DNA of 64,000 nucleotides from Bryopsis sp. KO-2023 (lineage: Eukaryota; Chlorophyta; Ulvophyceae; Bryopsidales; Bryopsidaceae). Location of the stretch: positions 3,038,001 through 3,102,000 of the forward strand of contig BSYQ01000013.1 of NCBI GenBank assembly GCA_030272585.1, written 5' to 3'. The notes under the pieces are model-generated. The model was not told the DNA's origin, searched no databases, and was given only the letters and a program-made list of their open reading frames with translations. This document shows positions 44,376 to 63,925 of this stretch, piece after piece (the first letter of the stretch is position 1; every line of letters starts with the position of its first letter). The translations under genes were made by a program, and so were the position numbers.

Positions 44376-44764
44376 TGATACGAACGTCCGTCGTATGACA
44401 CGCGGTTCGGCCCACTCACCCAACACGTGGTTCGGCCTGACAGTAGTCGGACCGAACCAGCTCACCATCATCATAGTCACACATTAAGGGAGAGGTCCAG
44501 GCCGCCTCTGAGGTGGCAACCCTCAGTTCGGCCTGGAGCCTCACATTCAGCTTAGGGTCCATTAGGACACGGCCAAGGGGCCATTAGAACGCTGAGTTGG
44601 ATGAAAGGGTTGGACAGGCTGTCGGCCCGGCCGAATACTTATTCGGCCCGGACCACAGCCTCATTGTAACTTGGACACATTGTAAAGTTCCTTGTTTTGA
44701 AGTGTATTCCGTGCTCTAGACGTAAGTCCACTCGACTAGTCTATTTGTTCCAACGTTTGTATCA
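44376..44764 (+). repeat. 5' LTR of outer element
   Basis: 389 bp, TG...CA, with 6-bp inverted ends. It matches 63537-63925 at every position I compared. It should contain the promoter and poly(A) signal. Confidence 0.93.
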
Positions 44765-44778: not shown

Positions 44779-44809
44779 CGAAGCCGGAACCAAGACCCAT
44801 ACCACCCGT

Positions 44810-45289
44810 ATGTCGAACAGCCACCCTACCTCGCCCCAGTCCTCCGCCGGCACACACGAACACCCGACTTCCCGTTATCTCACGGTGCCAGAGGAGCTGG
44901 TCGCACCACATTGGAGAAGGTTTTACATCGACCAACTGGCCTTTTGCTACGGCGGCCCAAGCGTTATCGAGGGCGTACCTCCCGGACTTGAGGGACCACC
45001 TATTCGAAGGCCGAGCCCCGTACCACCACCTACCGGGCCGAACGACAACGACGACACAGAAAGTGTCGTAAGCTGTGACTCCTGCTTCACAGAGGAGGAA
45101 AGAAACGACCCGGAGTTTCTGCGTTTCTACGCTGAAGTCCAGGAGCACCTACGCAACCGGCGGGCAAACTCGGCCGAGGAACCCCTTCGCAATCGGGACC
45201 CACGGCTCGCACACGGAGTCCAACCATGGACCTCATACCGTACGAGCCAGCCGAAGCCATCGCCTATCCCGACGGAGTGGAGGAGATGA
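44810..45289 (+). CDS. Upstream ORF overlapping gag, outer element
   Basis: A 159-residue ORF starts at the first ATG after the PBS and overlaps the gag start by 64 bases in another frame. It is Pro/Ser-rich at the start, has the segment APHWRRFYIDQLAFCYGG, a CDSC pair, and a charged helix. It resembles no known domain. The nested element has an ORF of similar size and position, suggesting real coding capacity rather than chance. Confidence 0.55.
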   Translation: MSNSHPTSPQSSAGTHEHPTSRYLTVPEELVAPHWRRFYIDQLAFCYGGPSVIEGVPPGLEGPPIRRPSPVPPPTGPNDNDDTESVVSCDSCFTEEERNDPEFLRFYAEVQEHLRNRRANSAEEPLRNRDPRLAHGVQPWTSYRTSQPKPSPIPTEWRR

Positions 45290-47484
45290 GCGCTGGGGAC
45301 AGTATGAGCCTGGGGACCGAAGAAGATCCCCCTCCGGTGCAAGGCGTATTTGTGCAGAACAACATCCAGCACAATGTGCAGAACGTGCACCACGTGGAGG
45401 TGAACCAGGACGAAACATCTATCACTGTGGCCCAGCTGGCGGCCAACACCGAAGAATGGGCGGGACGTACTCAGGCCGAGCTGTACCAAGCACTCAACGA
45501 AGTGCGAGGAGAACTCCATCATACCCGCGAAGAAGCCGAAGCTCGACAATGGCAAGTGGCCAACGAGCAGGCCGAAGCCATGAACACGGCCCTCGAGAAC
45601 CAGAGAGCCGAATTGGAGGACCATCACTGGGAGGACCGCGTTCGGTTGGAAGAGGAGTTCATCCGACGGCTCGAGCACCTCAAAGCCGAGAACGGGCATC
45701 TCGTGGCCGAAATGGAAGAACGTATGTACCTGGCCCAAGAACGTGCGGCCGCCAAGGCAGCTCAAGATTTCCAAGACCTTGGAGCCCGGACCGAAAGGCT
45801 CACGTTGCAAGTGGCAGACCAGCGGGCCGCTGTCGAGACGCTCGGGGTCGAAACAAAGTGTCTACGGGAAGACTACCCATCCGTGGACGAGCTCGTGAAG
45901 TTATGGTCCAAGCAAGTTCCAGCGCAGCCCCAAGTCATTCCTGTGTACATGGCCGGAGCCGGAACCCAAACTGTGACCCAAACTACACAAGCGCCACCCG
46001 GACCACCCCCGTCTTCCAGTTTTCAAGACGCGCCCCTTGTTTCTCCCATCATCAGCAATGCACCCGCGGTACCTATTCTCGCGCCACCCAGTGGAGCGCC
46101 CAACCAACGGCGAGCCGGACCACCACCAGGACCTGTCATTCGAGAGCCCGGTTCTGCACCAACGGGCGGGCCGAGGCCGAGCCGAAGAGACCCAGCGGCC
46201 GCCGCAAGGCCACCCAGCGGCCAGAACCAAGCCACCAATCCTACACCGCCATCCGGCCAAGGACCTCCCATAGCACCACGTCAAGAACCACCCCCTGGAC
46301 CCAGTCAGCCACAGGGAGTTGGAGCTGTCGGATTCAATTCGGGAACGGACCCGTTTGCGGGCCTGGGTTCCTATGCCTCAGTTGGACAGCAGGACCCCAA
46401 CTCCGGATTCCGAGACGCTCCAAGAAGACGGCGGCCAGGAGGAGGAGGCGGGGACGATGGTGATGGAGGTGGTGGGCCGAATGGACCAGGAGGATCTGGC
46501 GGGCCGAATGGACCTGGTGGGCCGAATGGACCGGGAGGAGGACCAAATGGACCTGGCGGCGGGCCGAACGGACCTGGAGGTCCCGGAGGACCTGGCGGAC
46601 CGGGAGGACCATTTGGACCACAATTACCCGGAGGGCCACCAGCAGCCGGAGGCAATGGATTGAGACAAGTCAAGATACCAATGCCACGAGCTTTCAACGG
46701 CACCGCGAATGTCACGGACTGGCTGATGCGTATGGGCCGATGGTTTCGCGCCCAGGCCATTCCAGAAGAGCTATGGCTTCAGGTCATCTGTGCCAACACG
46801 GAGGGCCCTGCAGCCGAATGGATGAATTTGACCGAGCTCAAAGTAATGGAGGGCCGAAGACAGCCATTTGCCGACTGGCGCTCGTGGGCCGAGGAGGCTC
46901 GAAAACTGTTCCAGCCGACGACAACCTCTGAACACGCCCGAGTCGAGTTACGAACCCTGAGGCAGACGACCTCAGTAAAGGACTACATCAAGCGCTACAA
47001 CAGCGTTTGTTTCAGGATCCCGGATATGAGTGAAGCGGAGGCATATAGCGCATTCACCGCAGGCTTGCGTGAACCGATCCGAAGTCAAGTTGTTGGCTTC
47101 ATTCGTGACGACGTGCAAGCCGCTATCGAAATGGCCGAACGGCTCGATGGTATCCGTGGACTTCATAACTCGAGTGAAGGCCGGGGTGGAGGAGGTCATC
47201 AGCGTTGGAATCGAAGATCAAGAGTTAACAGTATTGGCGACAAAGCCGGAGATGATCGTCTCAACTACATTGGTGGAAACCGCGGCCGGGGAGGTTCAAG
47301 CCGAGGCCGAGGCCGAGGCCGTGGCCGCAGTGGGGGAAGATTTGGAGGACGAGGAGGTGGAGGCCGATCTACCACACCAAGTGGAAGAGGAGGCCGGGGT
47401 GGAATATCATGCTACTTATGCGGAGGAGATCATGGGATCAGGAATTGTCCCAAGCTCTCGGCCGCAAAGCGTTCGATAAACTGA
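45226..47484 (+). CDS. gag: Gag polyprotein of outer Ty3/gypsy element
   Basis: 752 residues from an ATG in good context. In order: an acidic leader, a long coiled coil (about residues 65-210), a Pro/Ala-rich region, a Gly/Pro/Asn collagen-like run at ~405-465, the retrotransposon gag capsid domain at ~480-640 (PRAFNGTANVTDWLMRMGRWF through MAERLDG), an RGG-box stretch and a CCHC zinc knuckle (CYLCGGDHGIRNC). Such Gag forms the virus-like particle and binds RNA. The collagen-like run and long coiled coil are unusual additions. Pol lies in the -1 frame and overlaps gag by 76 bases. Confidence 0.92.
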   Translation: MDLIPYEPAEAIAYPDGVEEMSAGDSMSLGTEEDPPPVQGVFVQNNIQHNVQNVHHVEVNQDETSITVAQLAANTEEWAGRTQAELYQALNEVRGELHHTREEAEARQWQVANEQAEAMNTALENQRAELEDHHWEDRVRLEEEFIRRLEHLKAENGHLVAEMEERMYLAQERAAAKAAQDFQDLGARTERLTLQVADQRAAVETLGVETKCLREDYPSVDELVKLWSKQVPAQPQVIPVYMAGAGTQTVTQTTQAPPGPPPSSSFQDAPLVSPIISNAPAVPILAPPSGAPNQRRAGPPPGPVIREPGSAPTGGPRPSRRDPAAAARPPSGQNQATNPTPPSGQGPPIAPRQEPPPGPSQPQGVGAVGFNSGTDPFAGLGSYASVGQQDPNSGFRDAPRRRRPGGGGGDDGDGGGGPNGPGGSGGPNGPGGPNGPGGGPNGPGGGPNGPGGPGGPGGPGGPFGPQLPGGPPAAGGNGLRQVKIPMPRAFNGTANVTDWLMRMGRWFRAQAIPEELWLQVICANTEGPAAEWMNLTELKVMEGRRQPFADWRSWAEEARKLFQPTTTSEHARVELRTLRQTTSVKDYIKRYNSVCFRIPDMSEAEAYSAFTAGLREPIRSQVVGFIRDDVQAAIEMAERLDGIRGLHNSSEGRGGGGHQRWNRRSRVNSIGDKAGDDRLNYIGGNRGRGGSSRGRGRGRGRSGGRFGGRGGGGRSTTPSGRGGRGGISCYLCGGDHGIRNCPKLSAAKRSIN

Positions 47485-50417
47485 AGGTCCGGGGCGCGAG
47501 GCCACCTACCCTGGACACAAATGCGGGTGGTATCGGGGCCGAGGTTCCGGAAGATTTTGGGGAGGAGCAAGCAGAAGGAATAGATGATAGAAAAATGACC
47601 AAGAGAGTTACTTGGCCGAACAAGGCGGAAGAGCATGAAAAACGGATAGACACTAGCTCCAGCTCGCATAGTTCCAATACTGCAGCGCGAGCCGAGTCCC
47701 ATGGAACAGGACTCAATGAAGGAGCGGATGATACTGGCCACGCACGGCCTGGGGTATCATCAGGGGAACCACCATCCACTGTACAGCTCGGCCCGCAAGG
47801 CAACCGAGGGATGGACGGTTCAAATTTTTCTCAAGTGCCGGGGGCACTCAGTCGCGCCGACTCTGCAGTGGCCGACAATTTTTCTTACATCGCCAGGACA
47901 GGAAACACCTGTTCCAAAGGGCGGTTTACTGGCTTCGAGATAGCCATTCAAGTTGGAGACCGACCGGTGAAGGCATATGTGGATAGCGGAAGTTGGGAAA
48001 ACTACATCTCAACGGCAACTCAAGCACGACTGGAATTGGAGGCAACCGGAGAGCACCGCACCTTGGTCATGGCGGATGGTTCCAAGGGCTCAACCCGGGG
48101 CCGAGCCGGACATGTTCGATTTCGATCGGGCCGAGCCACTTTTGTCGCGGATTTTCATATCTTTCCCGACATGGCATACGAGATGATTTTGGGCATCCCG
48201 TGGCTTGTGGCCGAAAACCCCGATCTCTGCTTTCGGACACGGACAATCTCGGTTCAGCGGGGGAAGACAAGGATTTCTCTCCCTCTAGCTATCTCGGGCA
48301 AGCCTCGACCCACCGAGACTATGAGCGTGGGCGACATGGAACAGACATCCGCGGCCAAGCTTTTAAAGGATGCGCGTGCTGGACAGGGAGACGTTGTGAT
48401 GGTAGTGGTTACCGAAGCCGAGGCCGAACAAAACGATGAACATACCAAGGATGATATCAGCAAGTTAGTTCGGCCCGAGCTATCAAAAGCGATCACGCAG
48501 CTCTTAACGGACTACAAGCGAGTATTCGCATCTGACCTTCCTAAAGGACCACCACCGGTCAGGAACGGTCATGAATTCGAGATCGAACTGGAGGAAGGAA
48601 CGAAGCCGATCTTTCGGCCTATGTACAAACTCTCTCCAGCCGAACTCGCGGAGGTCCGGAAGCAGCTCGACTACATGTTGGACCGAGAGCTGATTCGGCC
48701 CTCAAAGAGCCCGTGGGGCGCCCCCATCCTTTTCGCCAACAAGAAGGATGGAGGGCTTCGCTTTTGCATTGACTACCGGTGGATCAACCAGCGGACGGTC
48801 AAGAACCGCTACCCACTCCCTCTCCCTGAAGAATTATTGGACCGCCTCCAGGGAGCCAAAATCTTCACTCGGCTGGACTTGCGCTCGGGGTATTGGCAGA
48901 TGCCCATCCGGGCCGAAGATCAGGAGAAGACCGCTTTACGGACCCGTTATGGGCACTACGAATACAAAGTAGTGCCCTTCGGCCTAACGAACGCACCCCC
49001 GCAGTTCATGGCGATGGTGAACGACCTCTTCCGGGATTTCCACGATAAGTTTCTGGTGGTCTTCCTGGACGACATCATCGTCTACAGTAAAACGGAGGAG
49101 GAACACGCGGAGCACCTTCGGCTCGTGCTGGACAAGCTGGCCGAGCATCAGCTCTATGCGAAGGCGTCAAAGTGTTCCATCGCCGTCAAAGAACTGGATT
49201 TCGTGGGGCATTGGATTTCGGCCGACGGCATCTCCCCTCATCGCAGCAAGACCCAAGCCATTCAAGATTGGAAGCCCCTACAGTCTGTGCCGGAAGTGCG
49301 GAGTTTTCTGGGCATGGTGTCCTACTACCGACGCTTCATCAGGGAGTTTTCACGGATTGCTGCTCCCATACAGAAGCTCGTCAAGAAGGACCAAGCCTGG
49401 GAATGGGGTCCGGCCCAGACCTCAGCGTTTCAAGAGCTCAAGGACCGACTCACTTCGGCCCCAGTACTCTTGATCCCGGACCCGGCCAAGCCGTATGTTG
49501 TTGCCACGGATGCATCGGACTTCGCATTAGGAGCTACCTTAATGCAGGGCAGCAAGGAGGAAGGTTATCAGCCCATTGCATTTTTGAGCCGTTCCCTGAA
49601 CTCCGCCGAGCAGAAGTATTCGGCCTACGAAAGGGAACTATTGGGCATCTCCTATGCTCTCGCCCAATGGCGTCACTACCTGGAAGGAGCTCCTGGTGGG
49701 ACTACGGTGTATACGGATCACCTCCCAGCTACCCATTTTCTACAGCAACGCGTCCTTTCACGGACTCAAACGCGTTGGTTGAAGTCTGGATCGTTCCAGT
49801 CTATCAAGCCGAAGATTTTATATCTTCCGGGCCGAGCCAATTTTGTGGCCGATGCGCTTTCTCGCAAGCCACAACTCCGGCTCAATGCGATTTTGGGGGC
49901 CAAAATCTCGCCCGGGGAGGCACAAGACTGGCAAGCCGCCATAAAGGAGGACCCTATTCTTCGACCAATCGTGACCCAACTTGAAGAGGGACGAGCAGTG
50001 CAGGGGTACACCCTGACCCCAGATGGACTGCTCATGTATCAAGCCAAGGACGTTGGAGCCGAGCCGAAACTCGTTGTGCCGGTTTCTAAACGCCAGGTGG
50101 TATTGCACGACCACCACGATGTGCCGATGGCGGGACATCCAGGGAAAGCTCGGACAGCCGAGCTTGTGAGCCGAAGACATTGGTGGAGAGGCTGGCGCCG
50201 AGCCGTGAACCACTATGTCGAATCGTGCCCCACTTGCCAGATGATGAAGACCGAGAATTCCAAGCAGAAAGGGTTGCTACACCCTCTGCCAGTTCCGGCC
50301 TACAAGTGGGAGCAGCTGACGACCGACCTCGTTACTGACTTACCGAAGTCTAACGGGTACACGGCCGTGGCTGTCTTTGTGGATCGGCTCACGAAGATGT
50401 GCAAGTTCGTTCCGTGC
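47409..50417 (+). pseudogene. pol: Pol of outer element, N-terminal part, split by nested insertion
   Basis: About 1003 codons in the -1 frame relative to gag. In order: a disordered linker, an aspartic protease (YVDSGSWENYIS), reverse transcriptase (KPIFRPMYKLSP, the FLDD catalytic box in VVFLDDIIVYSK), RNase H (VATDASDFALGAT, YERELLGISYAL), the integrase HHCC zinc finger (HDHHDVPMAGHPGKA to CPTCQMMK) and the start of the integrase core. The frame then meets the nested element between two codons at 50417/50418 and ends within its LTR at 50480. The rest resumes at 59461 in the same frame. Confidence 0.93.
50413..50417. repeat. Target duplication of nested element, left
   Basis: CGTGC here and at 59456-59460 flanks the nested element, the 5-bp duplication typical of Ty3/gypsy integration. 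Confidence 0.9.
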
Positions 50418-50881
50418 TGTAAAGACTGCGCTGTAGACTGCGACTCTGAAGCAGTCTGCCAGCCTGAAACAACAGCCTAGAAGGCTGCAACAAGTTCTGA
50501 CACGAGAGAGCGGGAGAGAGAGAGTGTTCAACCCCAAAATCGAGTTACAAGAATACCCTGAGGTGCTGCCCAAATACCCTAGGCTGCACCTCTGATCCAA
50601 ACTGATCGTTCGAGGTCCTATCCATCAACATGACCTGACAGTCTGCCTCAGTGTCAGGTCCCCTGTCTGAAACCTTCTGAGCTGCCAGCCCTGCAGAAAA
50701 GCGTCTGCTGAGCTGTCAGCCCCCATTCACAGATCTAAGGGTTCCGCCCTGCTGCAGCAAACCGGCTGCAGCATTGCTGGTTCCCTAGAACTGCAGGCCT
50801 GTCAGTTCCCCTGAACTGCAGGTCTGCCAGTTCCCTGAACTGAGGATCTGACAGTTCCCCCTGAACTGTAGAATCCTTACA
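50418..50881 (-). repeat. 3' LTR of nested element
   Basis: 464 bp; in element orientation it begins TGTAAGG and ends CTTTACA. Rich in CTGCAG and short tandem sub-repeats around TGAACTG. Confidence 0.93.
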
Positions 50882-50894
50882 TTCCTCCCCATCT
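50882..50894 (-). other. Polypurine tract of nested element
   Basis: AGATGGGGAGGAA on the minus strand lies directly upstream of the 3' LTR, the expected plus-strand priming site. Confidence 0.75.
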
Positions 50895-51851: not shown

Positions 51852-52718
51852 TCAGGTCGCCGGACGTTTCAAGCCCCTCTTTGGCGCAAGCGCGGGCACA
51901 CTCCAGCGGATCTCTCGAAGTGGCACGCAGTCACGATTGGTTCGTCCCGGGGAGGCTGGCTGCGTTGGCAGGGGTGGACTGATGACCGCAATCCGCAAGG
52001 ACGTCAGCACCCTCGGCGCCATGACCGTGTGCTCCCGCAGCTGGCACAGCCCGCACTCTTTCGTCGCATCCACCGAGACCCCCTTTCGCGTTTCGCTGAG
52101 TCGTCCAACCACCTCCAAGCTCCCGTCTGGGTTCGTTCTCTCCACCGTTACGTCTGGCGCGTACCAGAGTCTCTGGACACAGAGGTCCCTGCAGCATACC
52201 CTGTGCTTCCCACATGGAAGCTCCCGAACTGGTGCCCCAAGAGACCTCGCCGTCTTGAAGCAAAGCGAACAGCCACGTCCCGTTTCTTTCAGCGCCGTCT
52301 CCATCTCACTCTTTTGGTCTGCTGCAGGTTTTTCTGGTTCAGGGAGCCCTGTGTCCAGGAAGCCGAAGGACAACTCCTCTTCGGAATCCAACCGCGTTAC
52401 CGGCATTTTCTTCGCCCACTCTCGCCACGCTCTCAGCTCACTCTCGGCAGCACTCAGAGACCCTTGCAGCTTCCACTTTTCCTGCTCCACCTTTTGACAC
52501 TTGCTCCTCAGCCTTTCCAACTCCGCAACGTCGACTGCCCTCTTCCGCAGGACCTGCACAGCCTCCTCAAACGCCACAACCTCATCTGCCCCCTTGATCA
52601 CGTCGGCTTTCTCCACCGCTGCCGCAGGGATAACCACAGGGGCAGCCTCTGCTGGCTCACTGCTGCTGGCGGGGGTTGAGACGATAAGGGCGGCCTGGTT
52701 TGCTGGTTGCTGATCCAT
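51852..52718 (-). CDS. Post-pol ORF, coiled coil plus RING-like module, nested element
   Basis: 288 residues from an ATG, about 185 bases after the pol stop in element orientation. An Ala/Pro-rich N-terminus is followed by a coiled coil (~50-105), then a Cys/His cluster: CSLC, 15 residues, CGKHRVC, CRDLC, 41 residues, CGLC. This ligand order and spacing fit a RING-type zinc finger. It sits where some Ty3/gypsy elements have an envelope-like gene, but has no signal peptide or membrane segment. The outer element carries a matching ORF. Confidence 0.65.
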   Translation of the reverse strand: MDQQPANQAALIVSTPASSSEPAEAAPVVIPAAAVEKADVIKGADEVVAFEEAVQVLRKRAVDVAELERLRSKCQKVEQEKWKLQGSLSAAESELRAWREWAKKMPVTRLDSEEELSFGFLDTGLPEPEKPAADQKSEMETALKETGRGCSLCFKTARSLGAPVRELPCGKHRVCCRDLCVQRLWYAPDVTVERTNPDGSLEVVGRLSETRKGVSVDATKECGLCQLREHTVMAPRVLTSLRIAVISPPLPTQPASPGRTNRDCVPLREIRWSVPALAPKRGLKRPAT

Positions 52719-52902
52719 GTTGATTCCTTTTTTTTTTTCCTTTCCGAACGATAGGCTCCTCTTTCTCTCTTCTTGCTCTGCGCACGTAACTTGCTAGACA
52801 GTTTCCGACTCCAGTATACTGCACACCTATTTCTGTTTCTGTCAGGGGTTGCTTCAGTCTGTCAGAGACATCAACCTGTCACCTCTGCTTGATCTAGTCC
52901 TT

Positions 52903-55900
52903 TCAGCTTCTTATCTCAAACTCACGTAACTTGTCCGGTGCGTTTCGCAAGTTTCTGGCAGGTTCCCAGGTGTCCTCCGATTGATCATAACCCTGCCACC
53001 TGACAAGGTACTGCTTCTTGCCCCTGACAGTCCTATCTGCCAGAATCCTGTCAACCAGATACTCCTCTTGGCCTGCCACCATCTCAGGCTCAGGTTGCCA
53101 CCTGGGTGCCTCCCTGTCAGGAAAGCTGCCCTCCTGATCTTCGAAAGCAGGTTTCAGCTTGGACACATGGAAGGTGTTATGAATTTTCCAATGACCTGGC
53201 AGCCTCAGCCTGACTGCAACTTCAGATAACCTCTTCAGAACTACAAAAGGTCCACAGTATTTTGCAGTCAATTTCCTGCTCAACACCTGTGGTAGGGGTA
53301 AGTCCTTTGTGGCGAGAAAAACTTTGTCGCCCGGCTGAAAGCCCCCTCCCCTTCTGTTTTCGTCCGCCCCCTGGCGTTGACGTGCCTGAGCAGAAGCAAT
53401 GTTCCTTCTGCAGGTTTGCAATGCAGTCTGCCAAGTAGACCACCAATCATCCACTGCGGGGCAAGCTGTAGCAGCTACAGCACTTGCAGGAGTTCTGGGT
53501 TGTTGTCCATTCATCAAATAGAAGGGAGAAAACCCAGTTGTAGCATTTATGCTGGAATTGTATGCAAATTCTGCAGCATCCAAATGCATATCCCAATCTG
53601 TGCCTGCAGGTTCCACATAACTGCGCAGAATTTCCTGCACTGTTCTGTTAGCTCGCTCAGTCTGACCATCTGTCTCAGGATGATAACTGCTAGACATTGC
53701 TAACCGAGTGCCTGCCTTCTTCCAAAGAGCCCTCCAAAAATTGCTAGTGAAACGACTATCCCGATCAGAAACAATTTCTTGAGGCAATCCAAAGAAACGA
53801 ACCACATGTTGGAAAAACAAATCTGCTACCCCTGCAGCAGTAACTGTCTGCTTTGTTGGAATGAGTCTGATCATTTTTGTGAATCGATCCACAACCACCA
53901 GCAAATAATCTGACCCTTTCTGAGTCCTTGGCAAAGGTCCAACAAAGTCCAATGAAACACTAGTCCACCTGCCATCTGGAATTGGCAAGGGCTGCAGCTT
54001 ACCCAAGGGCTTCTGAGTAGAGGCCTTGTTTCGTTGGCAGGGAATGCAATTCCTTACATACTTCTGCACAGATCCTGAAATAAGGGGCCAGAAGTAATAC
54101 TGCTGAACCCTGTGCAGGGTCTTCCTCCTGCCCAGATGTCCTGCCAATGCAGACTCATGGCAAGCATGCAGTATCTTTTCCCTGAGCCCATCTGCTTCAG
54201 GTATCCACCATTTCCAGGAATGACCAACATGCCTCCAAAGTTTCAGACCATCCCATTTCACATGTGGAGGTCTGGAAGGTGCTCCAATCAGCTGCCAACA
54301 CAATGGGTCCTTCTTGTAAGCTGCCAGCACTGCCTGCTGAAATTCCCGATCTGCTGTCAACCTTATCCTTGCATTCAGCTGAGGACCATGTTCCTCTGCC
54401 TGATGTGTGGCCCTGCTCAACGCATCTGCCACCACATTGTCTCTGCCTGGCCGGTACTTGATCTCGAACTTGAAGGATTGCAGAGTCTCCATCCATCGTG
54501 CCTGCCTCTGTGACAGGTGAGGCTGGGTGTGCAAAAATTTTAGAGGTGCATGATCGGTGTGCACGGTGAACTCCTGAGCATCCAAGTAGTGCCTCCACAC
54601 TTTCAGAGCATGCACCACAGCCAACAGCTCCTTTTCATGAGTCGCATAGTTGAGCTCTGCCGGTTGCAGTTTCCTGCTTTCATATGCCACTGGTTGCTGA
54701 CCCTGCCCCTGGTCCTGTGTTAGGACTGCTCCAATAGCATAGTCTGAGGCATCTGTGATCACCTCGAATCTCAGACTTGGGTAAGGCACCAAAAGCACTG
54801 GTGCAGACATTAACGCCTCCTTGACATCCTGCATTGCTGCAGCTTCTGCCTCAGTCCATTTCCACACTGCCTCCTTTTTCAATAGAGCAGTGAGTGGTTT
54901 GGCTCTTGCAGAAAAATCCTTGATGAATCTTCTGTAATAGTTTGCCAATCCCAGAAATGACCTGAGATCCTTCACTGAAGTCAAAGGTGGCCAGTCCCTG
55001 ATGACCTGCACCTTACTCTGCAACACCTGTACTCCTGCAGCACTCAACTCATGCCCCAGAAACTCAACTTGCTCCTTGCAGATTTCACATTTGGAAGCTG
55101 AAGCATATAATTTTTGCTCCCTCAATCTCTGCATCACCTTTTTCAAGTGAACCTTGTGTTCTGCCCAACTCTTGCTAAAAATCAAGATGTCATCTAAGTA
55201 AACGATGCAGAAGGCATCCAGAAAATCATGTAACACGTGATTCATTGTGTTCATGAAGGTGGCAGGAGCATTTGTCAGCCCAAAAGGAAGAACAGTGTAC
55301 TCGTAGAGGCCATACCTGGTGCGGAAGGCCGTTTTCTCACAGTCTGCAGGGTCCAACCGCACCTGATGGTAGCCTGCGCAGAGATCAATTTTGCTGAAGC
55401 AGCGAGCTCCCTGAATCTGATCCAGCAATTCCTCTATCCTTGGGATAGGGTACCTGTTCTTCACCGTTAGTTTGTTAAGTGCCCGAAAGTCTACGCACAT
55501 CCTAAGCTTTCCGTTCTTCTTAGGAACAAACAAAATTGGTGAACCCCAGGGTGACTTGCTAGGTCTGATAAAACCCTGCTTCAGTAACTCTGCCAACTGC
55601 TTCTTCAATTCTTCTCTTTCTGCAAAACTGGCTCTATAAAGCCCCTTTTTCACTGGTTCTGCCCCTTCTATCAATTCAATCTTGTGGTTCACACCCCTGT
55701 CAGGAGGCAATTCCTGCGGCAGTTCCTCTTTAAACAAATCCTGAAACTCCTTTCTGATCTGTTTTTCTAGCTCAACTGCCTCTTTCTGTTCCTCTGACAA
55801 GGTTTCTGGTTCACTGCCTCTCACTGCATCAGTACTTTCCAAACCATTTATTGAACATCCATTATTTACTTCCCGTAAATTCAATAGGTACATCGGCAGG

Positions 55901-57066
55901 CCCTTGCGAGCTGCCCGAGCTACCTCATGTGCAGACATGAGGTCCAAATCTGCTGTACTGCAATCTTCCAATCTGCCTGTTTGCATTCTAAGTTTAACGA
56001 CTCTACCCTGAGGCCCCTGCAAAGCCACTATCTTTTCCTGCCAATCTATGGTGGGGTTATGTTTGATCAACCAAGACATACCCAGCACCAGGTCATATCT
56101 GCCCAGTGTTACTGCATACATCTTTTCTTCAGACACAAACCTCCCCATCTTGACACTGGCCTGCAGTTCTTTTTCTACCTTTTCCGAAGTCCTGCCATCT
56201 GCCAACTGAACTTCAGAAACTGCCTCAGAGTGTTGTGTCTGTATGCTGTTTTCCTGCAACCAATCTTTCGAAACAAAATTGTCGGTTGCACCACTATCTA
56301 TCAAAATTCTAGCAAAACAATCTGCCACAAACCCTGTGGTCTTCAACATTCCCTGAGTCCCCCCATGGACTCCTCTCAACTTCAAAAGTGGGGGTTCATC
56401 CAAGCTATATCCTTTAAAGCAAACTTCATTAGGTCTGCCCAGCCCAGATTCCTCTCTCACTGAAAACAGGTCTGCGGTGTCTGCCCTCAGATCACCAGCA
56501 GCACCAACATGCACTGAAAAATCATGCAGGTCAGGTGTGGCCCCGCCTGGCCCTGCACCTACTGCCTCTGAGAATTGAGTAGTTGTGGCTACCGTAGGCA
56601 CATCAACCCCCTCAATCTCACTCCATGACCCTGCAGGTGTCAGTGCCTCCTGCACTACACCTTCAGAATCCTTCTCTGAAACATCTGCAGATGCTGCGAC
56701 TCCGCGCCCAGCATCTACCATTGCACTCTTCAAACAAACTGCAAGCCTCCCCAACTTCGGCAGACCACTTGCAGTATTGCTCACCTTCTCCCTAAGGCCT
56801 CCAGAATTCCCTGCACCGGTGTCCCTGCCTGGACCACCACCTGCAGAAATTCCATCCATGAATCTTACACACTTCTCCTCGGTTACGGCTACACACGGCT
56901 CATCAACCTTAGAATGGACTCCACGCCCATAGGCTACCCTCCCCTGAGGTAACACCTTGTGTGGGTGGCTACGCCGACCTTCCCACACTCCACTTCTGTC
57001 CTCCTGCTTCTCTTCTCCACGGCTGGCAGTCTCTCCAGACTCCAGCCTGCTCAGTTTTCCTGACAA
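52903..57066 (-). CDS. pol: Pol polyprotein of nested chromovirus
   Basis: An open frame of 1387 codons overlapping the gag end by 16 bases in the -1 frame; the first codon in the frame is TTG, so expression is probably by frameshift or readthrough from gag. Domains in order: a long linker (~1-230), protease (LIDSGATDNFVS), reverse transcriptase (catalytic YLDD in IVYLDDILIFSK), RNase H (VITDASDYAIGAV, THEKELLAVVHAL, HTDHAPL), integrase with zinc finger and a DDE core (SLDFVGPLP, VSDRDSRFTS, YHPETDGQTERANR), a GPY/F-like region (KYCGPFVVLK) and a C-terminal chromodomain (YLVDRILADR, YLVRWQGYDQSEDTWEP). All catalytic motifs seem intact. The chromodomain probably guides integration to marked chromatin. 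Confidence 0.95.
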   Translation of the reverse strand: MSGKLSRLESGETASRGEEKQEDRSGVWEGRRSHPHKVLPQGRVAYGRGVHSKVDEPCVAVTEEKCVRFMDGISAGGGPGRDTGAGNSGGLREKVSNTASGLPKLGRLAVCLKSAMVDAGRGVAASADVSEKDSEGVVQEALTPAGSWSEIEGVDVPTVATTTQFSEAVGAGPGGATPDLHDFSVHVGAAGDLRADTADLFSVREESGLGRPNEVCFKGYSLDEPPLLKLRGVHGGTQGMLKTTGFVADCFARILIDSGATDNFVSKDWLQENSIQTQHSEAVSEVQLADGRTSEKVEKELQASVKMGRFVSEEKMYAVTLGRYDLVLGMSWLIKHNPTIDWQEKIVALQGPQGRVVKLRMQTGRLEDCSTADLDLMSAHEVARAARKGLPMYLLNLREVNNGCSINGLESTDAVRGSEPETLSEEQKEAVELEKQIRKEFQDLFKEELPQELPPDRGVNHKIELIEGAEPVKKGLYRASFAEREELKKQLAELLKQGFIRPSKSPWGSPILFVPKKNGKLRMCVDFRALNKLTVKNRYPIPRIEELLDQIQGARCFSKIDLCAGYHQVRLDPADCEKTAFRTRYGLYEYTVLPFGLTNAPATFMNTMNHVLHDFLDAFCIVYLDDILIFSKSWAEHKVHLKKVMQRLREQKLYASASKCEICKEQVEFLGHELSAAGVQVLQSKVQVIRDWPPLTSVKDLRSFLGLANYYRRFIKDFSARAKPLTALLKKEAVWKWTEAEAAAMQDVKEALMSAPVLLVPYPSLRFEVITDASDYAIGAVLTQDQGQGQQPVAYESRKLQPAELNYATHEKELLAVVHALKVWRHYLDAQEFTVHTDHAPLKFLHTQPHLSQRQARWMETLQSFKFEIKYRPGRDNVVADALSRATHQAEEHGPQLNARIRLTADREFQQAVLAAYKKDPLCWQLIGAPSRPPHVKWDGLKLWRHVGHSWKWWIPEADGLREKILHACHESALAGHLGRRKTLHRVQQYYFWPLISGSVQKYVRNCIPCQRNKASTQKPLGKLQPLPIPDGRWTSVSLDFVGPLPRTQKGSDYLLVVVDRFTKMIRLIPTKQTVTAAGVADLFFQHVVRFFGLPQEIVSDRDSRFTSNFWRALWKKAGTRLAMSSSYHPETDGQTERANRTVQEILRSYVEPAGTDWDMHLDAAEFAYNSSINATTGFSPFYLMNGQQPRTPASAVAATACPAVDDWWSTWQTALQTCRRNIASAQARQRQGADENRRGGGFQPGDKVFLATKDLPLPQVLSRKLTAKYCGPFVVLKRLSEVAVRLRLPGHWKIHNTFHVSKLKPAFEDQEGSFPDREAPRWQPEPEMVAGQEEYLVDRILADRTVRGKKQYLVRWQGYDQSEDTWEPARNLRNAPDKLREFEIRS

Positions 57067-58220
57067 TCAACAGCAAAATGGCCCAACTTGTCGCAGTTGT
57101 AGCACCGCACATTTGCTGCAGCGCGACCTGCGTCCATTCTGCTTCTGCCTGCTGACAAACTTTCTCCAGACTTTCGCCTCTGTCTGCGAGGACTGCCACT
57201 GCGTCCCCTGCTCTTGCTGCGACTTGCGTCACGGCGTTTGCCGTCGTCAAAACCCACACGGTTTCGCTGGAGGCCATCAACCTCCATGCGGTCACCTGAT
57301 TGGGGAATATAACGCGGTGTCTGCCGATCGTCAAATCTGCCACGGTTGAAACTCTGAGACCTGCCTCTGCTCTGCGAGCGTCCTCTGCTCTGTGAGCGTC
57401 CTCTGCTCTGGGATCGTCCCCTGCTTTGGGACCTGTCCCTGCGTGAACTTTCACGCCTGGCTCTGGGACTGCGGCCTCTGCGCCCTTCTCTGCGGTATAT
57501 CTCCAGAGGTCCTTCCCATGTAGCGGCAAGTGCTATTGCACGCTCCAAATCTGCAGGATCTTCCATTTCAACCTTAGTGCGCAAACGATCATTCAGACCT
57601 TCTATGAAACGAAACAGCTGCTCCCCAGCATTGCTGTCGTTGATCTGCAACATGAGCCTGCGAAAATCGTGCACATATTCTGCGACAGTCATTCGACCCT
57701 GCTTCAGGCGTGACCATTCACGTCTGAAGTCCTTGTTCTCGTTGGTCTTGCCGAACTGCCGTCTGAGATCTGCGACTAGTGCGGTCAGATCTGTAGGCAA
57801 AGCCCTCTGGCCTGCCATTGCCTCTTCGTAACGACTTCTCCACCATGTACCTGCAGCACCTCTTAAACAGCCTGCAGCCACCAAAACCTGCTGTTCCCTG
57901 TCTCTGGTTGCAGTCAGATCATAATATGTCTGCAACTGAACCTGCCACTCGTTCAGAGGAACATCCTGTGGATCACCATACCAGGAGTCAGGGCCTTTTG
58001 CCCTTGCTTTACCCAGAGCTGCCGGCGGATGCTGCTCGGCCAACCTAGTCCGTACTGCGTGCCGGACTGCATCGTCCATCTGCGCGTTGACATTAGCGGC
58101 GACCTGCCTCAGGTGCAGGATCTCTTCCTGCATCTCTGCCATGCCCCGCCTCAGACCCTGAAGATCGAACGGATCTGGGGCTGGCGTTCCCATCTGGGGG
58201 TGCTCGTCTGTGCCTGACAT
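57051..58220 (-). CDS. gag: Gag of nested chromovirus
   Basis: 389 residues from the ATG at 58220; the frame is open further up without an ATG. A short coiled coil (MAEMQEEILHLRQVAANVNAQ) leads into the gag capsid domain (VPLNEWQVQLQTYYDL, AAGTWWRSRYEEA, RFIEGLNDRLR), then an Arg/Ser-rich tail with five SQSRGR repeats and a CCHC knuckle (CYNCDKLGHFAVDC) just before the stop. It overlaps the small upstream ORF by 128 bases. Confidence 0.9.
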   Translation of the reverse strand: MSGTDEHPQMGTPAPDPFDLQGLRRGMAEMQEEILHLRQVAANVNAQMDDAVRHAVRTRLAEQHPPAALGKARAKGPDSWYGDPQDVPLNEWQVQLQTYYDLTATRDREQQVLVAAGCLRGAAGTWWRSRYEEAMAGQRALPTDLTALVADLRRQFGKTNENKDFRREWSRLKQGRMTVAEYVHDFRRLMLQINDSNAGEQLFRFIEGLNDRLRTKVEMEDPADLERAIALAATWEGPLEIYRREGRRGRSPRARRESSRRDRSQSRGRSQSRGRSQSRGRSQSRGRSQSFNRGRFDDRQTPRYIPQSGDRMEVDGLQRNRVGFDDGKRRDASRSKSRGRSGSPRRQRRKSGESLSAGRSRMDAGRAAANVRCYNCDKLGHFAVDCQEN

Positions 58221-58578
58221 TCCTCCTGTTCCGCTCACGCCTTTCCTGCGTTGCCCTCTGCGATCTGTAGATCGGACACTGAGGGTCAGAACAGTCGTAG
58301 TATCTGATAATATTACCACTGCGTTCTGCCTTCCTGTGGCCGTGAGGAGGCGCTCTGAGAGGAGGTGGAGGTACCACTGCCAATGGGTGTCTCACCGGAC
58401 CCAAAACCTGCACTGGTCTGGGTAACCTGTAAGGGGCTGAAACCCAGTCCCCTGAGAAAGTAAACAGATCAGGTGGCAGGTTTCCCTGAAACTCTGCCTC
58501 ACACTGGATAACAGTCTCTACGTCTGATTCTGCTTCACTTCCACTACTCTCCACTGTCACAGGTTTCCCAAAACTCAT
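58093..58578 (-). CDS. Upstream ORF overlapping gag, nested element
   Basis: 161 residues from the ATG at 58578, in a different frame from gag. The N-terminus is acidic/Ser-rich, the middle aromatic and Pro-rich (LFTFSGDWVSAPYRLPRP), and the C-terminus has CSDPQC followed by an Arg-rich stretch. No family was recognised. Same position and size as the upstream ORF of the outer element. Confidence 0.55.
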   Translation of the reverse strand: MSFGKPVTVESSGSEAESDVETVIQCEAEFQGNLPPDLFTFSGDWVSAPYRLPRPVQVLGPVRHPLAVVPPPPLRAPPHGHRKAERSGNIIRYYDCSDPQCPIYRSQRATQERRERNRRNVRHRRAPPDGNASPRSVRSSGSEAGHGRDAGRDPAPEAGRR

Positions 58579-58587
58579 GCAGCACAC

Positions 58588-58978
58588 TTCTGCAGAAAGC
58601 CACTACAACACCGGCTAATTCCGACTAACCAAGAAGCCTTGCGCGAAACCTGCGTCTTCTAGATCTGCGCCGCCGCGCCTACTCTGATTAACCTAGAAAA
58701 CTTGCGCAAACCTGCGTCTTCTAGACCCTGCGCCGCTGCGCCTACTCAAACCTGCACTCAGGCAGTACTGCGATTTCGACCTTTTAGAAAGCTGCGCCTG
58801 CCTGCGCCAAACCTTTCTGGGATCTCTCTGAAAGCTGCGCCTATCTGCGCTGAACCTTTCTGCGACCTCTCCTTTGAAAGCTGCGCCTGCCTGCGCTACC
58901 TTTCACCAGAACTTCGTTCTCTCCTTTGCTTCCTCTTGAAGCCTTTCAGGAACGCTGCGATCTTGTCGCCAGCCCTGA
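58588..58978. other. 5' leader of nested element
   Basis: Between the PBS and the first ORF in element orientation. It contains several copies of a GCGCAG/AAAGCTGCGCCT-type sub-repeat. No coding frame. Confidence 0.6.
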
Positions 58979-58990
58979 GCTCCGAAACCA
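58979..58990 (-). other. Primer-binding site of nested element
   Basis: TGGTTTCGGAGC one base inside the 5' LTR, identical to the outer element's site. Confidence 0.75.
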
Positions 58991-58991
58991 A

Positions 58992-59455
58992 TGTAAAGAC
59001 TGCGCTGTAGACTGCGACTCTGAAGCAGTCTGCCAGCCTGAAACAACAGCCTAGAAGGCTGCAACAAGTTCTGACACGAGAGAGCGGGAGAGAGAGAGTG
59101 TTCAACCCCAAAATCGAGTTACAAGAATACCCTGAGGTGCTGCCCAAATACCCTAGGCTGCACCTCTGATCCAAACTGATCGTTCGAGGTCCTATCCATC
59201 AACATGACCTGACAGTCTGCCTCAGTGTCAGGTCCCCTGTCTGAAACCTTCTGAGCTGCCAGCCCTGCAGAAAAGCGTCTGCTGGGCTGTCAGCCCCCAT
59301 TCACAGATCTAAGGGTTCCGCCCTGCTGCAGCAAACCGGCTGCAGCATTGCTGGTTCCCTAGAACTGCAGGCCTGTCAGTTCCCCTGAACTGCAGGTCTG
59401 CCAGTTCCCTGAACTGAGGATCTGACAGTTCCCCCTGAACTGTAGAATCCTTACA
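58992..59455 (-). repeat. 5' LTR of nested element
   Basis: 464 bp, matching the other LTR except one base at 59285. Confidence 0.93.
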
Positions 59456-59460
59456 CGTGC

Positions 59461-60417
59461 ACCAAGGAGGTGTCGGCGAAGGGATACGCCGAACTCTTTC
59501 TCTCCAAGGTATTCCCAACCTCAGGGATACCAGAAGTCATAGTCTCCGATCGAGACCCAAGATTTACGAGCCAGTTCTACAAGGAGTTGTTTCGGCTCGT
59601 GGGTACCGATCTAAGGATGTCGACCGCTCACCATCCGCAATCTGATGGACAGAGCGAGGTAACAATCCGAACACTGGAGAACTTCCTTCGGCCCTACATT
59701 GAAGCAAGGCCGGAGACATGGAGCGACTACCTCAGCACGGCCGAATTTGCCGCAAACAATTCGGTCAACGCCAGCACCAAATATACCCCTTTCTACCTGA
59801 TGTATGGGCAACACCCAAGAGGCCTGGAGGCCGACCGGCCGAGTACCAACGTGGAGGCGGCCGAGGCCATGGTGAGCCGAATGAACCGAGACCTAGAAGA
59901 GGCCAAAGCAAACTACGCTTCGGCCCAGGAGACCATGTGTGAGAGCGCCAACAAAAAGAGGCGACATGTGGAATTCGCAGTGGGGCAGGAGGTTTGCCTC
60001 CGAAGTGCCCACCTCCCTCTGGCCGTAACCAAGCATATTCCGGCCAAGGTCAGGCGAAGGTTCATCGGGCCGTTCAAGGTTGAGGCCGTAATATCACCAG
60101 TGGCCTATAGGCTCGACCTCCCACCCGGCTGGAGGCTTCACCCTACATTCCACGTCTCCAAGCTCAAGGAATACAAGCGGTCCGAGGAGTTCGTGCGGGA
60201 TGCACCTCCCGGCCCGGCTCTTATCGATGAGCTGGATGGAGAAGAGGAATACGAAGTGGAGGCTATTGTCAGGGAGAAAGGAAAGGGAAGAGGAAAACGT
60301 TATTTGGTTTGCTGGAAAGGATACCAACCCCATGAGGCAACATGGGAGCCGAAGGAGAGTCTGACACATTGTTCAGATCTGCTGGCCGAGTTCGTTGCAC
60401 GAACGGGCCGAGCATGA
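59461..60417 (+). pseudogene. pol: Pol of outer element, C-terminal part
   Basis: The remaining integrase core (VSDRDPRFTSQFYKEL, HHPQSDGQSEVTIRT), GPY/F region (RRFIGPFKVEAV) and chromodomain (YEVEAIVREK, RYLVCWKGYQPHEATWEP) of the outer pol, about 318 codons. It resumes in the same frame right after the duplicated CGTGC, showing that pol was intact when the nested element landed. Confidence 0.93.
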
Positions 60418-60738
60418 CTGGAGGAAGCTTCTGATGCAACTGACGAGGGTGATGGGGGAGTTGGAAGTCATGATGACGAACTGATGAGGTCAACCTCGGC
60501 CGGAATGGGACGGTACCTCAAACGAGGCGGTACCTCGGAAGTTCGGAGGGAATTCCCATCCCTCGTCACATCAGAGTGTACCTTTCAGTTGCGCAACGTG
60601 TCTGACCGGTACCTCATCGGCGAATTTAAAGAGAAGTAACGAAGGCGCTACAGAAAGCCTTTGTCGATTTCAGTCAAAAAGAAAAAAAGGAGAGAGAGCC
60701 CACACGGCCGAACACAGAAAAGAAAGGAAAGAGGAGCC
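60418..60738. other. Spacer between pol and the post-pol ORF
   Basis: 320 bases with no other frame; possibly holds a promoter, splice site or reinitiation signal for the downstream ORF. Confidence 0.4.
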
Positions 60739-62145
60739 ATGGATCTGACAGCGGCCAACTTGGAGCGATTTCTGCAGGACGCGCGACAGTCCACTGAGCA
60801 GAAGAACAAGCTCGAGGCCGAACTTGCCGAATGGCAAAATAGGGCCAACGAGGCGGAGAAGCGGGCAAAAGCCGCTGAGGAGAAAGTGGCTCAGTTGGAG
60901 GAACAGCTGAAAACGCAGCGCTTGGATGCGTTTCGGCAAGCAGCAGTGTGGGGGCAGGAAAGGGAAAGGCTGGCGAAAACAGCCATGACCGAGGCTATCG
61001 ACACCCTCAACCGTGGACTGCAGCGTATGGAAATGGACCAACCTCTGGCCGAGGAAAAAGAAAAAGAAAAAGAGCACGTGGAAACCGAAACGGTGGAAGA
61101 CTCGGTACAAGAAGAAGTCGCTGCGGAAAGGCCACCAGAGGGACCATCGTCAACCCCACTGAAGGTGGTGGTCCCGCGACGAAAAAGGTCGAGGAAGCTC
61201 AAAGGCCGAGGGGTGGGGAGGTTCATCCTGGACGAGGCCATGGAGGTGGACCAGGCTGAGGCCGAGGGGGAGGACGAGCAGCAGCTGTGGGATTACACGG
61301 AGGACCCATATGCGGATTTGGACGAAGCTCTTCCCCCGAGGCCGAAGCCTGGTCCCGTCCTGCTCTCAGGGAGTGAGGATGACCCCATTTCGGAGGAGCC
61401 TCCGAAAGCATCGTCCCTACCTCCACCACCACCTCCAGCGACCGTCCCGACCACCTTCGCCTGCGCAGCTTGCGCATACCCGAGGGAAGCTCCCCGTCCA
61501 GGATTGGATCGCGTGCTCTGCGAAAAAGGGCATCTTTTGTGCAAAAAACACAATGTGGGGTTGAGGATCGCGGCCAGGGCGGGAGCCCTCATCTCGGCCG
61601 ACGAATCAGGAGGACCTTACCTCCCGCGCATACAGGACCTCATCGGCGAGGGAACCCAAGGCGTCAAGCCGATCCTCCCCTTCGACGCCCCACTCCCGGA
61701 CTGTCCAAGCTGTACCAAGGCAGCGCTGAAGGGTCGTTGGCCTGGCAAGCTTAAAGAACAGGTCGGCACCTGGAACCAGTCATGGGCTGCACAGGACAGA
61801 CCCCTGTCCTGTGCATCGCACAGGACAGGGTTCTGTGCGGGTTCTGTGCACCCTGTGCTGTCCTGTCCTGTGCGGCGAAAATCCACAGGACAGACCCACG
61901 TCTGTCCTGTGCTGTACAATGACTGTGTAACCCCGGACTTCGACCCCCTGTACAACCTGTGCGCACACGTGAGACTGTGTACAGCACAGTGCGCAGTCTG
62001 TGCAGCACAGACTGCGTACTGTGCTGCACAGACCACGTGTACTGTGTGCTGCACAGACCAAGTACTGTGCAGCACAGTACTTGATCTGTGCAGCACAGAC
62101 CTTGATCTGACCAATCTTACGCCTGTTTTAGACAGGTCGGTGTGA
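60739..62145 (+). CDS. Post-pol ORF, coiled coil plus RING-like module, outer element
   Basis: 468 residues from an ATG in strong context, about 320 bases after the pol stop. Residues ~5-115 form a coiled coil (LERFLQDARQSTEQ, AEKRAKAAEEKVAQLEEQL); an acidic/basic linker with PRRKRSRKLKGRG follows; then a Cys/His cluster near 61462-61715: CAAC, 15 residues, CEKGHLLCKKH, 50 residues, CPSC. The spacing between the first pairs equals that in the nested element's ORF. The last ~115 codons lie in CTGTGC-rich DNA and are probably not original, so the native C-terminus is likely lost. Function unknown; ubiquitin ligase activity would be speculation. Confidence 0.6.
   Translation: MDLTAANLERFLQDARQSTEQKNKLEAELAEWQNRANEAEKRAKAAEEKVAQLEEQLKTQRLDAFRQAAVWGQERERLAKTAMTEAIDTLNRGLQRMEMDQPLAEEKEKEKEHVETETVEDSVQEEVAAERPPEGPSSTPLKVVVPRRKRSRKLKGRGVGRFILDEAMEVDQAEAEGEDEQQLWDYTEDPYADLDEALPPRPKPGPVLLSGSEDDPISEEPPKASSLPPPPPPATVPTTFACAACAYPREAPRPGLDRVLCEKGHLLCKKHNVGLRIAARAGALISADESGGPYLPRIQDLIGEGTQGVKPILPFDAPLPDCPSCTKAALKGRWPGKLKEQVGTWNQSWAAQDRPLSCASHRTGFCAGSVHPVLSCPVRRKSTGQTHVCPVLYNDCVTPDFDPLYNLCAHVRLCTAQCAVCAAQTAYCAAQTTCTVCCTDQVLCSTVLDLCSTDLDLTNLTPVLDRSV
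61780..62118. repeat. CTGTGC/GCACAG-dense region, left of palindrome
   Basis: Short palindromic motifs such as CTGTGCAGCACAG and TGTCCTGTGC recur every 15-40 bases. A similar region lies to the right at 62720-63110. Together they look like the outer part of a foldback element. Confidence 0.7.
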
Positions 62146-62716
62146 CTTAATTAAGCGCACATAAGCGTGCTAATCGAGTATCAACCAACTGGGAAGATAC
62201 TTAATTAATTAAAGAACTAAGTGATATTATTATATCCATTATCAATGCATGAATGACGTGAGCCAAGCTCACCAGCCTCGAAATAGGGCTGTCGATCGAC
62301 AATAGGATTCGAACTCGGGTTGGCTAAGTCCGAGTCCTACACACCAAACCAATGGCGGACCCCACCACAGGGACGCCCAAGTGGGGGCTGTTACCCTTAA
62401 GTACCTAGTTTTCGTAATTAAAAAAAATGGGTACTTCAAGGTAACGGCCCCCACTTGAGCGTCCCTGTGGTGGGGTCCGCCATTGGTTTGGTGTGTAGGA
62501 CTCGGACTTAGCCAACCCGAGTTCGAATCCTACTGTCGACTGACAGCCCTATTTCGAGGCTGGTGAGCTTGGCTCACGTCATTCATGCATTGATAATGGA
62601 TATAATAATATCACTTAGTTCTTTAATTAATTAAGTATCTTCCCAGTTGGTTGATACTCGATTAGCACGCTTATGTGCGCTTAATTAAATCACACCGACC
62701 TGTCTAAAACAGGCGT
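62119..62716. repeat. ~600-bp foldback palindrome
   Basis: Two arms of about 287 bases (62119-62405 and 62429-62716) are near-perfect reverse complements around a 23-base loop (62406-62428). Mismatches are few. Each arm also contains a smaller hairpin (GTAGGA...CTCGG / CCGAG...TCCTAC) with a GTTCGAATCC string like a tRNA B box. Cruciform or hairpin formation is likely. Confidence 0.9.
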
Positions 62717-62719
62717 ACT

Positions 62720-63120
62720 AGGTGTAAGACCGTAGTCTGTGCAGCACAGACTGCGGACTGTGCAGTACAGTACTTCATCTGTGCTGCACAGTCCAGACAG
62801 ACTCTGCACAGACGTGTGGTCCCGAGCGCCTGTGCGCACCTGTTCTGTCCTGTGCGCAGCACAGGCAATAATCGCCCTGCACAGACGTGTGGTCCCGAGC
62901 GCCTGTGCGCACCTGTTCTGTCCTGTGCGCAGCACAGGCAATAATCGCCCTGTGCTGCACAGACAGGCGCACAGACCTGCACAGTCAGCGCACAGACCCA
63001 TGTCTGTCCTGTGCTGTACAAGTCTGTGCGCCTGTGCTGCACAGGTCGAACCCTGTGCACAGAACAGACAGTCTGGTCTGTCCTGTCCTGTGCACAGGGG
63101 TCTCGGCCCATGTCTGGTCC
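62720..63120. repeat. CTGTGC/GCACAG-dense region, right of palindrome
   Basis: Mirror region of 61780-62118, with the same palindromic words. It ends near TCGGCCCATG, which loosely mirrors CATGGGC near 61784. Confidence 0.65.
62804..62950. repeat. 73-bp tandem duplication
   Basis: Two adjacent, apparently identical 73-bp copies starting ctgcacagacgtgtggtccc lie in the CTGTGC-rich region right of the palindrome. Confidence 0.88.
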
Positions 63121-63520
63121 AGAACTGGGTTATTTTGTTTTGAGTTCTGACCCAATGGTTTTTTTTATACAATGGTTTTTATACAGTGGATTGGCCAGGC
63201 TGGGTCAATCACCTGCTTTCTGGATACTTATAAGGGAATCTGAATTTGGACCTTATGGATTGCTTTGTGCAAACAGTTAGCTGGTTACAGTACATGATTC
63301 GGCCTGCAGGTGGCAGCCTTATCATTTGGTTGATTTTTGTTGATAATTCGCTTAGAGTTTTTGAACACTCTTTTAATTCAGCGAAGGTTAAACATTATTT
63401 GACTCCCTTAAAAGCTAAAGGCTTGTTGGATGCCTTGAAAGCGTTTTGTGTGTGTCTATGCGTATGTGTGAGTGTAACCCCCAAATTTCGGTTACTTGGG
63501 TACGCGAGGCGCGTACTTGC
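63121..63520. other. 3' noncoding region of outer element
   Basis: About 400 bases with TG-rich stretches and no gene, leading to the polypurine tract. Confidence 0.5.
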
Positions 63521-63536: not shown

Positions 63537-63925
63537 TGATACGAACGTCCGTCGTATGACACGCGGTTCGGCCCACTCACCCAACACGTGGTTCGGCCTG
63601 ACAGTAGTCGGACCGAACCAGCTCACCATCATCATAGTCACACATTAAGGGAGAGGTCCAGGCCGCCTCTGAGGTGGCAACCCTCAGTTCGGCCTGGAGC
63701 CTCACATTCAGCTTAGGGTCCATTAGGACACGGCCAAGGGGCCATTAGAACGCTGAGTTGGATGAAAGGGTTGGACAGGCTGTCGGCCCGGCCGAATACT
63801 TATTCGGCCCGGACCACAGCCTCATTGTAACTTGGACACATTGTAAAGTTCCTTGTTTTGAAGTGTATTCCGTGCTCTAGACGTAAGTCCACTCGACTAG
63901 TCTATTTGTTCCAACGTTTGTATCA
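63537..63925 (+). repeat. 3' LTR of outer element
   Basis: 389 bp, same sequence as the 5' LTR, followed by the ATTAA target duplication. Confidence 0.93.

Follow-up and report, generated by a model that had tools for sequence, protein, structure and literature searches.

Two families of cysteine- and histidine-bearing accessory proteins encoded after pol in chromoviruses of Bryopsis sp. KO-2023, with relatives in a repeated KDZ-like unit

The DNA under study, here called the window, is a stretch of 64 kb from the coenocytic green alga Bryopsis sp. KO-2023 (Ulvophyceae, Bryopsidales), whose genome has 91 Mb in 28 contigs. It holds two chromoviruses, one inserted into the other. The outer element (44376-63925, plus strand) is bounded by a 5' LTR (44376..44764) and a 3' LTR (63537..63925), with 390 identities over 391 compared positions, and it is flanked by the target duplication ATTAA, as read by eye. 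Its gag lies at 45226..47484, and its pol is split in two by the nested insertion: the first part (47409..50480) encodes the protease, reverse transcriptase (RT), RNase H and H2C2, and the second (59456..60417) the end of the integrase and the chromodomain, all on the plus strand. The nested element (50418-59455, minus strand) has a 5' LTR at 58992..59455 and a 3' LTR at 50418..50881, identical to each other at 463 of 464 positions, with CGTGC read by eye as the target duplication at both ends. Its gag (57051..58319, minus strand) has a Retrotrans_gag match and a CCHC knuckle, and its uninterrupted pol (52903..57066, minus strand) encodes protease, RT, RNase H, integrase and chromodomain. RT, RNase H, H2C2 and the chromodomain were matched in both pols, and the Pfam Chromo profile was found at the pol end with E 3.6e-16 in the nested and 5.9e-14 in the outer element. 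Thus, with RT, integrase, a C-terminal chromodomain and LTRs, both elements are chromoviruses (Ty3/Gypsy).

As originally predicted, an open frame follows each of these chromodomain-ending pols, at 51852-52718 (minus strand) in the nested and 60739-62145 (plus strand) in the outer element. The nested frame, termed type N, is intact, encodes 288 amino acids and starts 184 nt past the pol stop in a frame different from that of pol. It has a heptad-like, predicted helical segment at about residues 55-105 (52404..52556, minus strand) and a putative zinc-ligand region at residues 150-225 (52044..52271, minus strand), with the order C-x2-C-x15-C-x2-H-x2-C-x4-C-x41-C-x2-C. The outer frame, termed type O, has a similar plan, with a heptad-like, predicted helical segment at about residues 7-95 (60757..61023, plus strand) and putative ligands at residues 242-325 (61462..61713, plus strand), C-x2-C-x15-C-x3-H-x2-C-x2-H-x50-C-x2-C. 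Its native part covers only 346 residues (60739..61776, plus strand), as compared with 403-407 in intact copies. When aligned with one such intact copy of 407 amino acids (L022), the window ORF breaks off at 61776 and restarts at 63118. The interval (61777..63117) is a foldback repeat of 1341 bp, which has taken the place of 316 bp of outer sequence, among them about 60 codons at the end of the ORF. On this alignment the last 122 residues of the open frame are read in from the repeat, and their native status was rejected. All eight ligands lie upstream of the break, and intact O copies finish in a basic tail. Pieces resembling the foldback repeat are present at many other sites in the genome.

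A search for the Cys/His layout in the six frames of the window found it at two places, the two ORFs and none other, and first-order Markov copies gave none in 3.2 Mb. The predicted layout is confirmed; the coiled coil that was predicted with it is a heptad-like segment by an ad hoc, crude score, which stands in for a coiled-coil predictor and is weak in two of the sampled rows, L059 (5'-truncated) and L068. The original prediction also saw no membrane features, and this is borne out: across 19 ORF rows the highest mean hydropathy over 19 residues is 1.42, which does not suggest a membrane helix, and a hydrophobic (transmembrane or fusion) segment was found by this measure in none of the 19. 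Basic clusters occur in 13 of these rows and are lacking in six, five of them among the seven N rows.

For the wider genome, seven N and 12 O rows were sampled from pairwise searches and from the reading of post-pol stretches; in the genome searches the best candidates were scored, and copy counts are accordingly lower bounds. The eight Cys/His ligands are kept in all seven N rows and all 12 O rows at 25-50% identity. The N rows share the pattern C-x2-C-x(12-20)-C-x2-H-x2-C-x4-C-x(38-43)-C-x2-C, and the O rows C-x2-C-x(12-16)-C-x(2-3)-H-x2-C-x2-H-x(39-53)-C-x2-C. The spacing of exactly 15 residues, noticed earlier in both window proteins, is thus a coincidence, since this gap varies from 12 to 20 in N and from 12 to 16 in O. 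Of the layout thought to be common to both, the ligand order holds, but the sixth ligand differs, being set in C-x4-C in N and in C-x2-H in O. These patterns describe rows already chosen, and L065, L068, L069/L076 and L073 were picked by eye from their cysteines. Because the rows were chosen partly by this feature, leave-one-out profile searches serve as the independent test. Every omitted row was recovered, with E from 4e-10 to 3.5e-45, against about 1e-4 or worse for the best of 200 shuffles.

The ORFs also bear the mark of purifying selection. The dN/dS ratio is 0.100-0.162 for six O pairs (dS 0.24-0.61), and a single N pair at dS 0.38 has 0.215, compared with 1.03-2.28 in an off-frame control on the same alignments. 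A close N pair (dS 0.05) gave 0.287 and a close O pair (dS 0.04) 0.034, each from few changes, and in between-family comparisons synonymous sites are saturated. At least 59 genome rows span at least 280 of the 288 N residues without a single in-frame stop; most of them are young copies, so that the absence of stops proves little alone. Copies lacking the ORF or free of constraint, which were named beforehand as one half of the outcome that would count against the idea, were found for neither family. The proposal of an accessory gene other than env behind pol is upheld: such a gene, conserved and under purifying selection, occurs there in several families of chromoviruses. It is almost certain that N and O are two accessory protein families in this alga.

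The further proposal that the two proteins are one module by descent found no support, and on this point the other half of that outcome, the lack of a profile match, did occur. The N and O profiles match nowhere beyond the ligands, and shuffles in which the ligands are kept equal or outscore the real comparison. BLASTP of N against O gave no significant match (E 0.29). The HMM-HMM comparison that had been advised (hhalign, three N-O profile pairs) was likewise not significant, with probabilities of 1.7, 0.3 and 1.3%, and the N-O score of 16.4 (probability 1.3%) lies below the mean of 19.4 and the maximum of 32.0 for 60 ligand-kept shuffles. There is a weak hint to the contrary, as an O ORF was the top decoy in all seven leave-one-out N searches (6.8-10.5 bits, once tied with a shuffle). 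The residual likeness appears faint and driven by the ligands. As far as their sequences tell, the ORFs thus belong to two families, N (nested) and O (outer), which are not demonstrably one.

Relatives of these proteins in the protein database, among the matches listed and with most searches scoring a capped set of about 8,000 candidates, are two Bryopsis gene models (P0003, P0005) and a partial record labelled Parasphingorhabdus (P0004). No relative was found in viral_contigs with P0002 and P0004 as queries or in genome_contigs with P0004; NCBIfam gave coiled-coil-like noise and nothing useful. In the open-access literature, where results were judged mostly by title and abstract, these algal ORFs were not found described.

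Inside the alga the association with pol is tight. In the nested family an ORF match stands directly after pol in 22 of 22 copies, 186-193 bp past the last pol match, and in the outer family in 34 of 34, at 314-339 bp; the copies counted are full-length pol rows of at least 99% (nested) or 98% (outer) identity, and several of the ORFs are partial. The type of ORF follows the pol clade, with six N and eight O families. In a tree of 16 rows, built on the integrase end and chromodomain, the six N rows group together (93/91), and so do the eight O rows with L078 (99/99), where L078 is the first branch (split 80/81). Long branches are flagged in this tree (L067nested, N_L065), and starred inner branches number four of 13. 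The family of the L067nested row is labelled there as putatively ORF-less. In the L078 chromodomain family no zinc pattern was found downstream of pol; of the 40 places scored, 37 show the family ending 777-785 bp past the pol stop, and the remaining three are copies that share longer flanks. Since this family has many copies without the ORF, the ORF is not needed by every chromovirus of the alga.

ORF and pol also differ in their synonymous divergence. Between the window's nested copy and L089, dS is 0.049 in the ORF and 0.846 at the pol end, and the DNA identity jumps from 78% to 98% near the end of pol. The outer family and L048 present the opposite case, with a pol-end dS of 0.046 and an ORF dS of 0.561. 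Such unequal values, in opposite directions in the two pairs, indicate that the ORF recombines within a 3' module, and the ORF half is, on these comparisons, evidently exchanged between subfamilies by recombination. As for its expression, the gap between pol and ORF is 57-321 nt in ten rows and falls in all three frames, which simple read-through does not explain; each of the ten AUGs has a purine at -3. This would suit independent initiation at the ORF's own AUG, presumably on an RNA that is spliced or subgenomic.

The two types meet outside the chromoviruses: C4 and C5 carry a repeated unit in which one N-like and one O-like ORF stand head to head. On the opposite strand, 3' of the O-like ORF, are open frames with Pfam matches to CxC5, KDZ and Chromo, all below the curated cut-offs (21.2, 20.5 and 20.1 bits against 26.9, 26.6 and 25.1). 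The open frames with the CxC5 (E 3.4e-4) and KDZ (E 4.1e-4) matches follow one another in the order expected. At six of six places the KDZ-like frame and the O-type match are on opposite strands with 263 or 277 bp between them, and an N-like ORF, by eye, is present at all six (about 2-6 kb away) and at a seventh, on C8. On C4 the repetition extends over at least 11.9 kb, from about 6424700 to past 6436599. The O-like ORF of the unit is clearly related to the retroelement O ORFs (E 2.6e-20; E 1.4e-41 to L062), and the N-like ORF has its relatives in the L065 family of retroelements (E 4.6e-4; profile E 4e-10). The unit is rich in internal repeats. It is probably, and with good confidence, a KDZ-type mobile element. 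What is new here, as read from these matches, is that O-type and N-type ORFs occur in one repeated unit, together with a gene that resembles a KDZ transposase and matches a chromodomain.

ORFs common to retrotransposons and a DNA transposon would have their role in a step common to both. A DNA transposon goes through no capsid, reverse transcription or membrane fusion step, which makes such roles unlikely, and the steps that remain would be access to chromatin, the choice of a target, the evasion of silencing and the turnover of host proteins. In the model proposed, the N-terminal heptad-like part would oligomerise, and the Cys/His region would fold with zinc into a compact domain, perhaps RING-like, that binds other proteins. 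The protein may act in the nucleus, where it would help the element to escape silencing or to handle host chromatin or ubiquitin factors. We hold this nuclear, host-directed role tentatively, at somewhat less than an even chance. The basic clusters are weakly consistent with a nuclear protein, and the presence of N and O in the KDZ-like unit hints against a capsid or envelope role and in favour of the host-directed one. A bolder and rather doubtful reading is that N and O make up a portable anti-silencing kit of a new kind of protein, with host chromatin or ubiquitin pathways as targets, which LTR retrotransposons with a chromodomain would share with a KDZ-type DNA transposon that also bears one; the DNA transposon would then use both types at once, and each of the two retrotransposon clades a single type.

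A more specific and unlikely proposal is that the proteins are RING-type E3 ubiquitin ligases, which would form oligomers by way of the N-terminal part and attach ubiquitin to a host factor of restriction or silencing. In RING domains the eight ligands follow the series C,C,C,H,C,C,C,C, or its H2 variant, with the pairs in register. The order in N and O (C,C,C,H,C,C/H,C,C) fits, and the last pair reads CP-x-C in O rows. The sixth ligand, however, is His in O, and in N x4 rather than x2 separates ligands 5 and 6. The advised check against Pfam RING profiles gave weak RING matches of several kinds, all far below the curated cut-offs. The best, PF24921 RING_XB3-XBAT31 (E 0.0025), concerns two N members of one family and scores 18.2 bits against a cut-off of 50 over positions 1-24 of 57. 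Other sub-cut-off matches are zf-C3HC4_2 (E 4.2), Sina_RING (E 7.1) and Prok-RING_4 (E 2.2 in N, 0.072 in O), and non-RING zinc families match O members equally weakly. The PDB search with P0002 found nothing, and PDB profile searches gave one chance-level match each (E 1.2 for O, 1.5 for N) and no relative. The structure models are of low confidence, with mean pLDDT of 42.7 from one sequence and 44.1 from three.

Alternatively, the proteins may serve the life cycle of the LTR element itself as a nucleic-acid chaperone, assembly factor or integrase partner. Their place after pol and the agreement of type with pol clade favour this, yet the relatives of both types beside a KDZ-like transposase, the recombination of the ORF away from pol and the one chromovirus family without it make it quite improbable; an integration or target-site role for both element classes is possible. 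If the KDZ-like unit were a composite of nested elements, the sharing between classes would be only apparent. Its sub-threshold KDZ and CxC5 matches and its wealth of internal repeats would suit such an origin, but order, strands and the O-KDZ spacing are constant at the six places, and no pol ORF is present in the pieces examined at C4 and C5, so we judge a composite distinctly unlikely. Envelope-like proteins have nothing but the post-pol position on their side and, in view of the hydropathy of the 19 rows, are scarcely credible. Near-identical young copies can stay open without selection, and the ORFs could in that way be chance frames or functionless passengers; the off-frame dN/dS control, the ligands that do not vary between families and the leave-one-out recovery make this extremely improbable.

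Accessory genes are of interest as they reveal a host barrier that an element must pass. In this alga the ORFs stand behind pol in two clades, with no fewer than 14 chromovirus families among those sampled, and in the searches made no relative of this kind of gene was detected outside the alga. If the sharing across classes is true, the step in question is common to both life cycles, and the function can be directly tested on silencing, chromatin and ubiquitin. The setting for such tests would be a coenocyte, whose single cytoplasm holds many nuclei.

Among known systems, REM1 of Chlamydomonas is a green-algal chromovirus whose ORF3p carries a PHD finger, of ligand pattern C4HC3, and a chromodomain. 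That protein is encoded in reverse orientation and fused to the chromodomain, whereas N and O lie on the sense strand, apart from the chromodomain, and their pattern is not that of PHD. The INT of REM1 is described as truncated and in the reverse frame (PMC2774666). LTR retrotransposons of bdelloid rotifers carry non-envelope ORF3 genes for a GDSL esterase or a DEDDy exonuclease (PMC5408684). Like N and O, these are extra, family-specific, non-envelope ORFs after pol, and by the title of that work they are shared by diverse retroelement types; unlike N and O, they encode known enzymes in animal hosts, and no zinc-finger or RING ORF is reported in the part of the account drawn on here (PMC5408684). 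In orchids, Ty3/Gypsy elements of a plant lineage have an additional ORF for an AlkB-like RNA demethylase, with a proposed function in host surveillance, though its catalytic domain is a known one and it belongs to a single lineage (PMC9289625). In fungi, KDZ and other DNA transposons carry a TET/JBP dioxygenase that is proposed to defeat silencing (PMC12730594). There too an accessory gene spans unrelated transposon lineages, KDZ included; that gene encodes a known enzyme of DNA transposons, whereas N and O are two families of putative zinc proteins that are carried by LTR elements as well.

When the Bryopsis genome (G000) was searched with the N ORF, the accessory Cys/His reading frame that follows pol in the nested chromovirus, in-frame stops were found in eight matches, and all eight lie on contig C2, as if old, decayed copies had been retained there. 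A separate search of the genome returned another family of N-like ORFs, at 30% identity and with open frames of 367-454 aa (G000:C4:3216685, C7:451719, C4:2017398, C13:2386737 and C15:205509). Divergent N-like and O-like accessory ORFs are further seen together with a KDZ-transposase-like gene within one repeated unit, 11.9 kb or more in length, located at G000:C4:6424700-6436600 and at the five other KDZ places (loci L060, L069, L076, L077 and L085-L088).

The O ORF, the counterpart in the outer chromovirus, shares 93% identity with P0004, a partial protein record labelled Parasphingorhabdus. This record is probably algal DNA within a bacterial assembly; bacterial genomes are described as having been assembled from this algal culture (PMC12509668).

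Part of the outer element is replaced by a foldback repeat (61777-63117), the arms of which (62045-62417 and 62418-62790) are 91% complementary. Short repeats are present on its flanks, and pieces resembling it occur at many places in the genome. Tandem repeats with a unit of about 467 bp occupy 41883-44415, and a 78-bp piece of them has an identical copy at the window's right edge (63923-64000).

At another locus, L066 (G000:C1:3972000-3974800), opposite-strand frames adjoin a chromovirus and, judged by eye, look like a DIRS-type element with a tyrosine recombinase.
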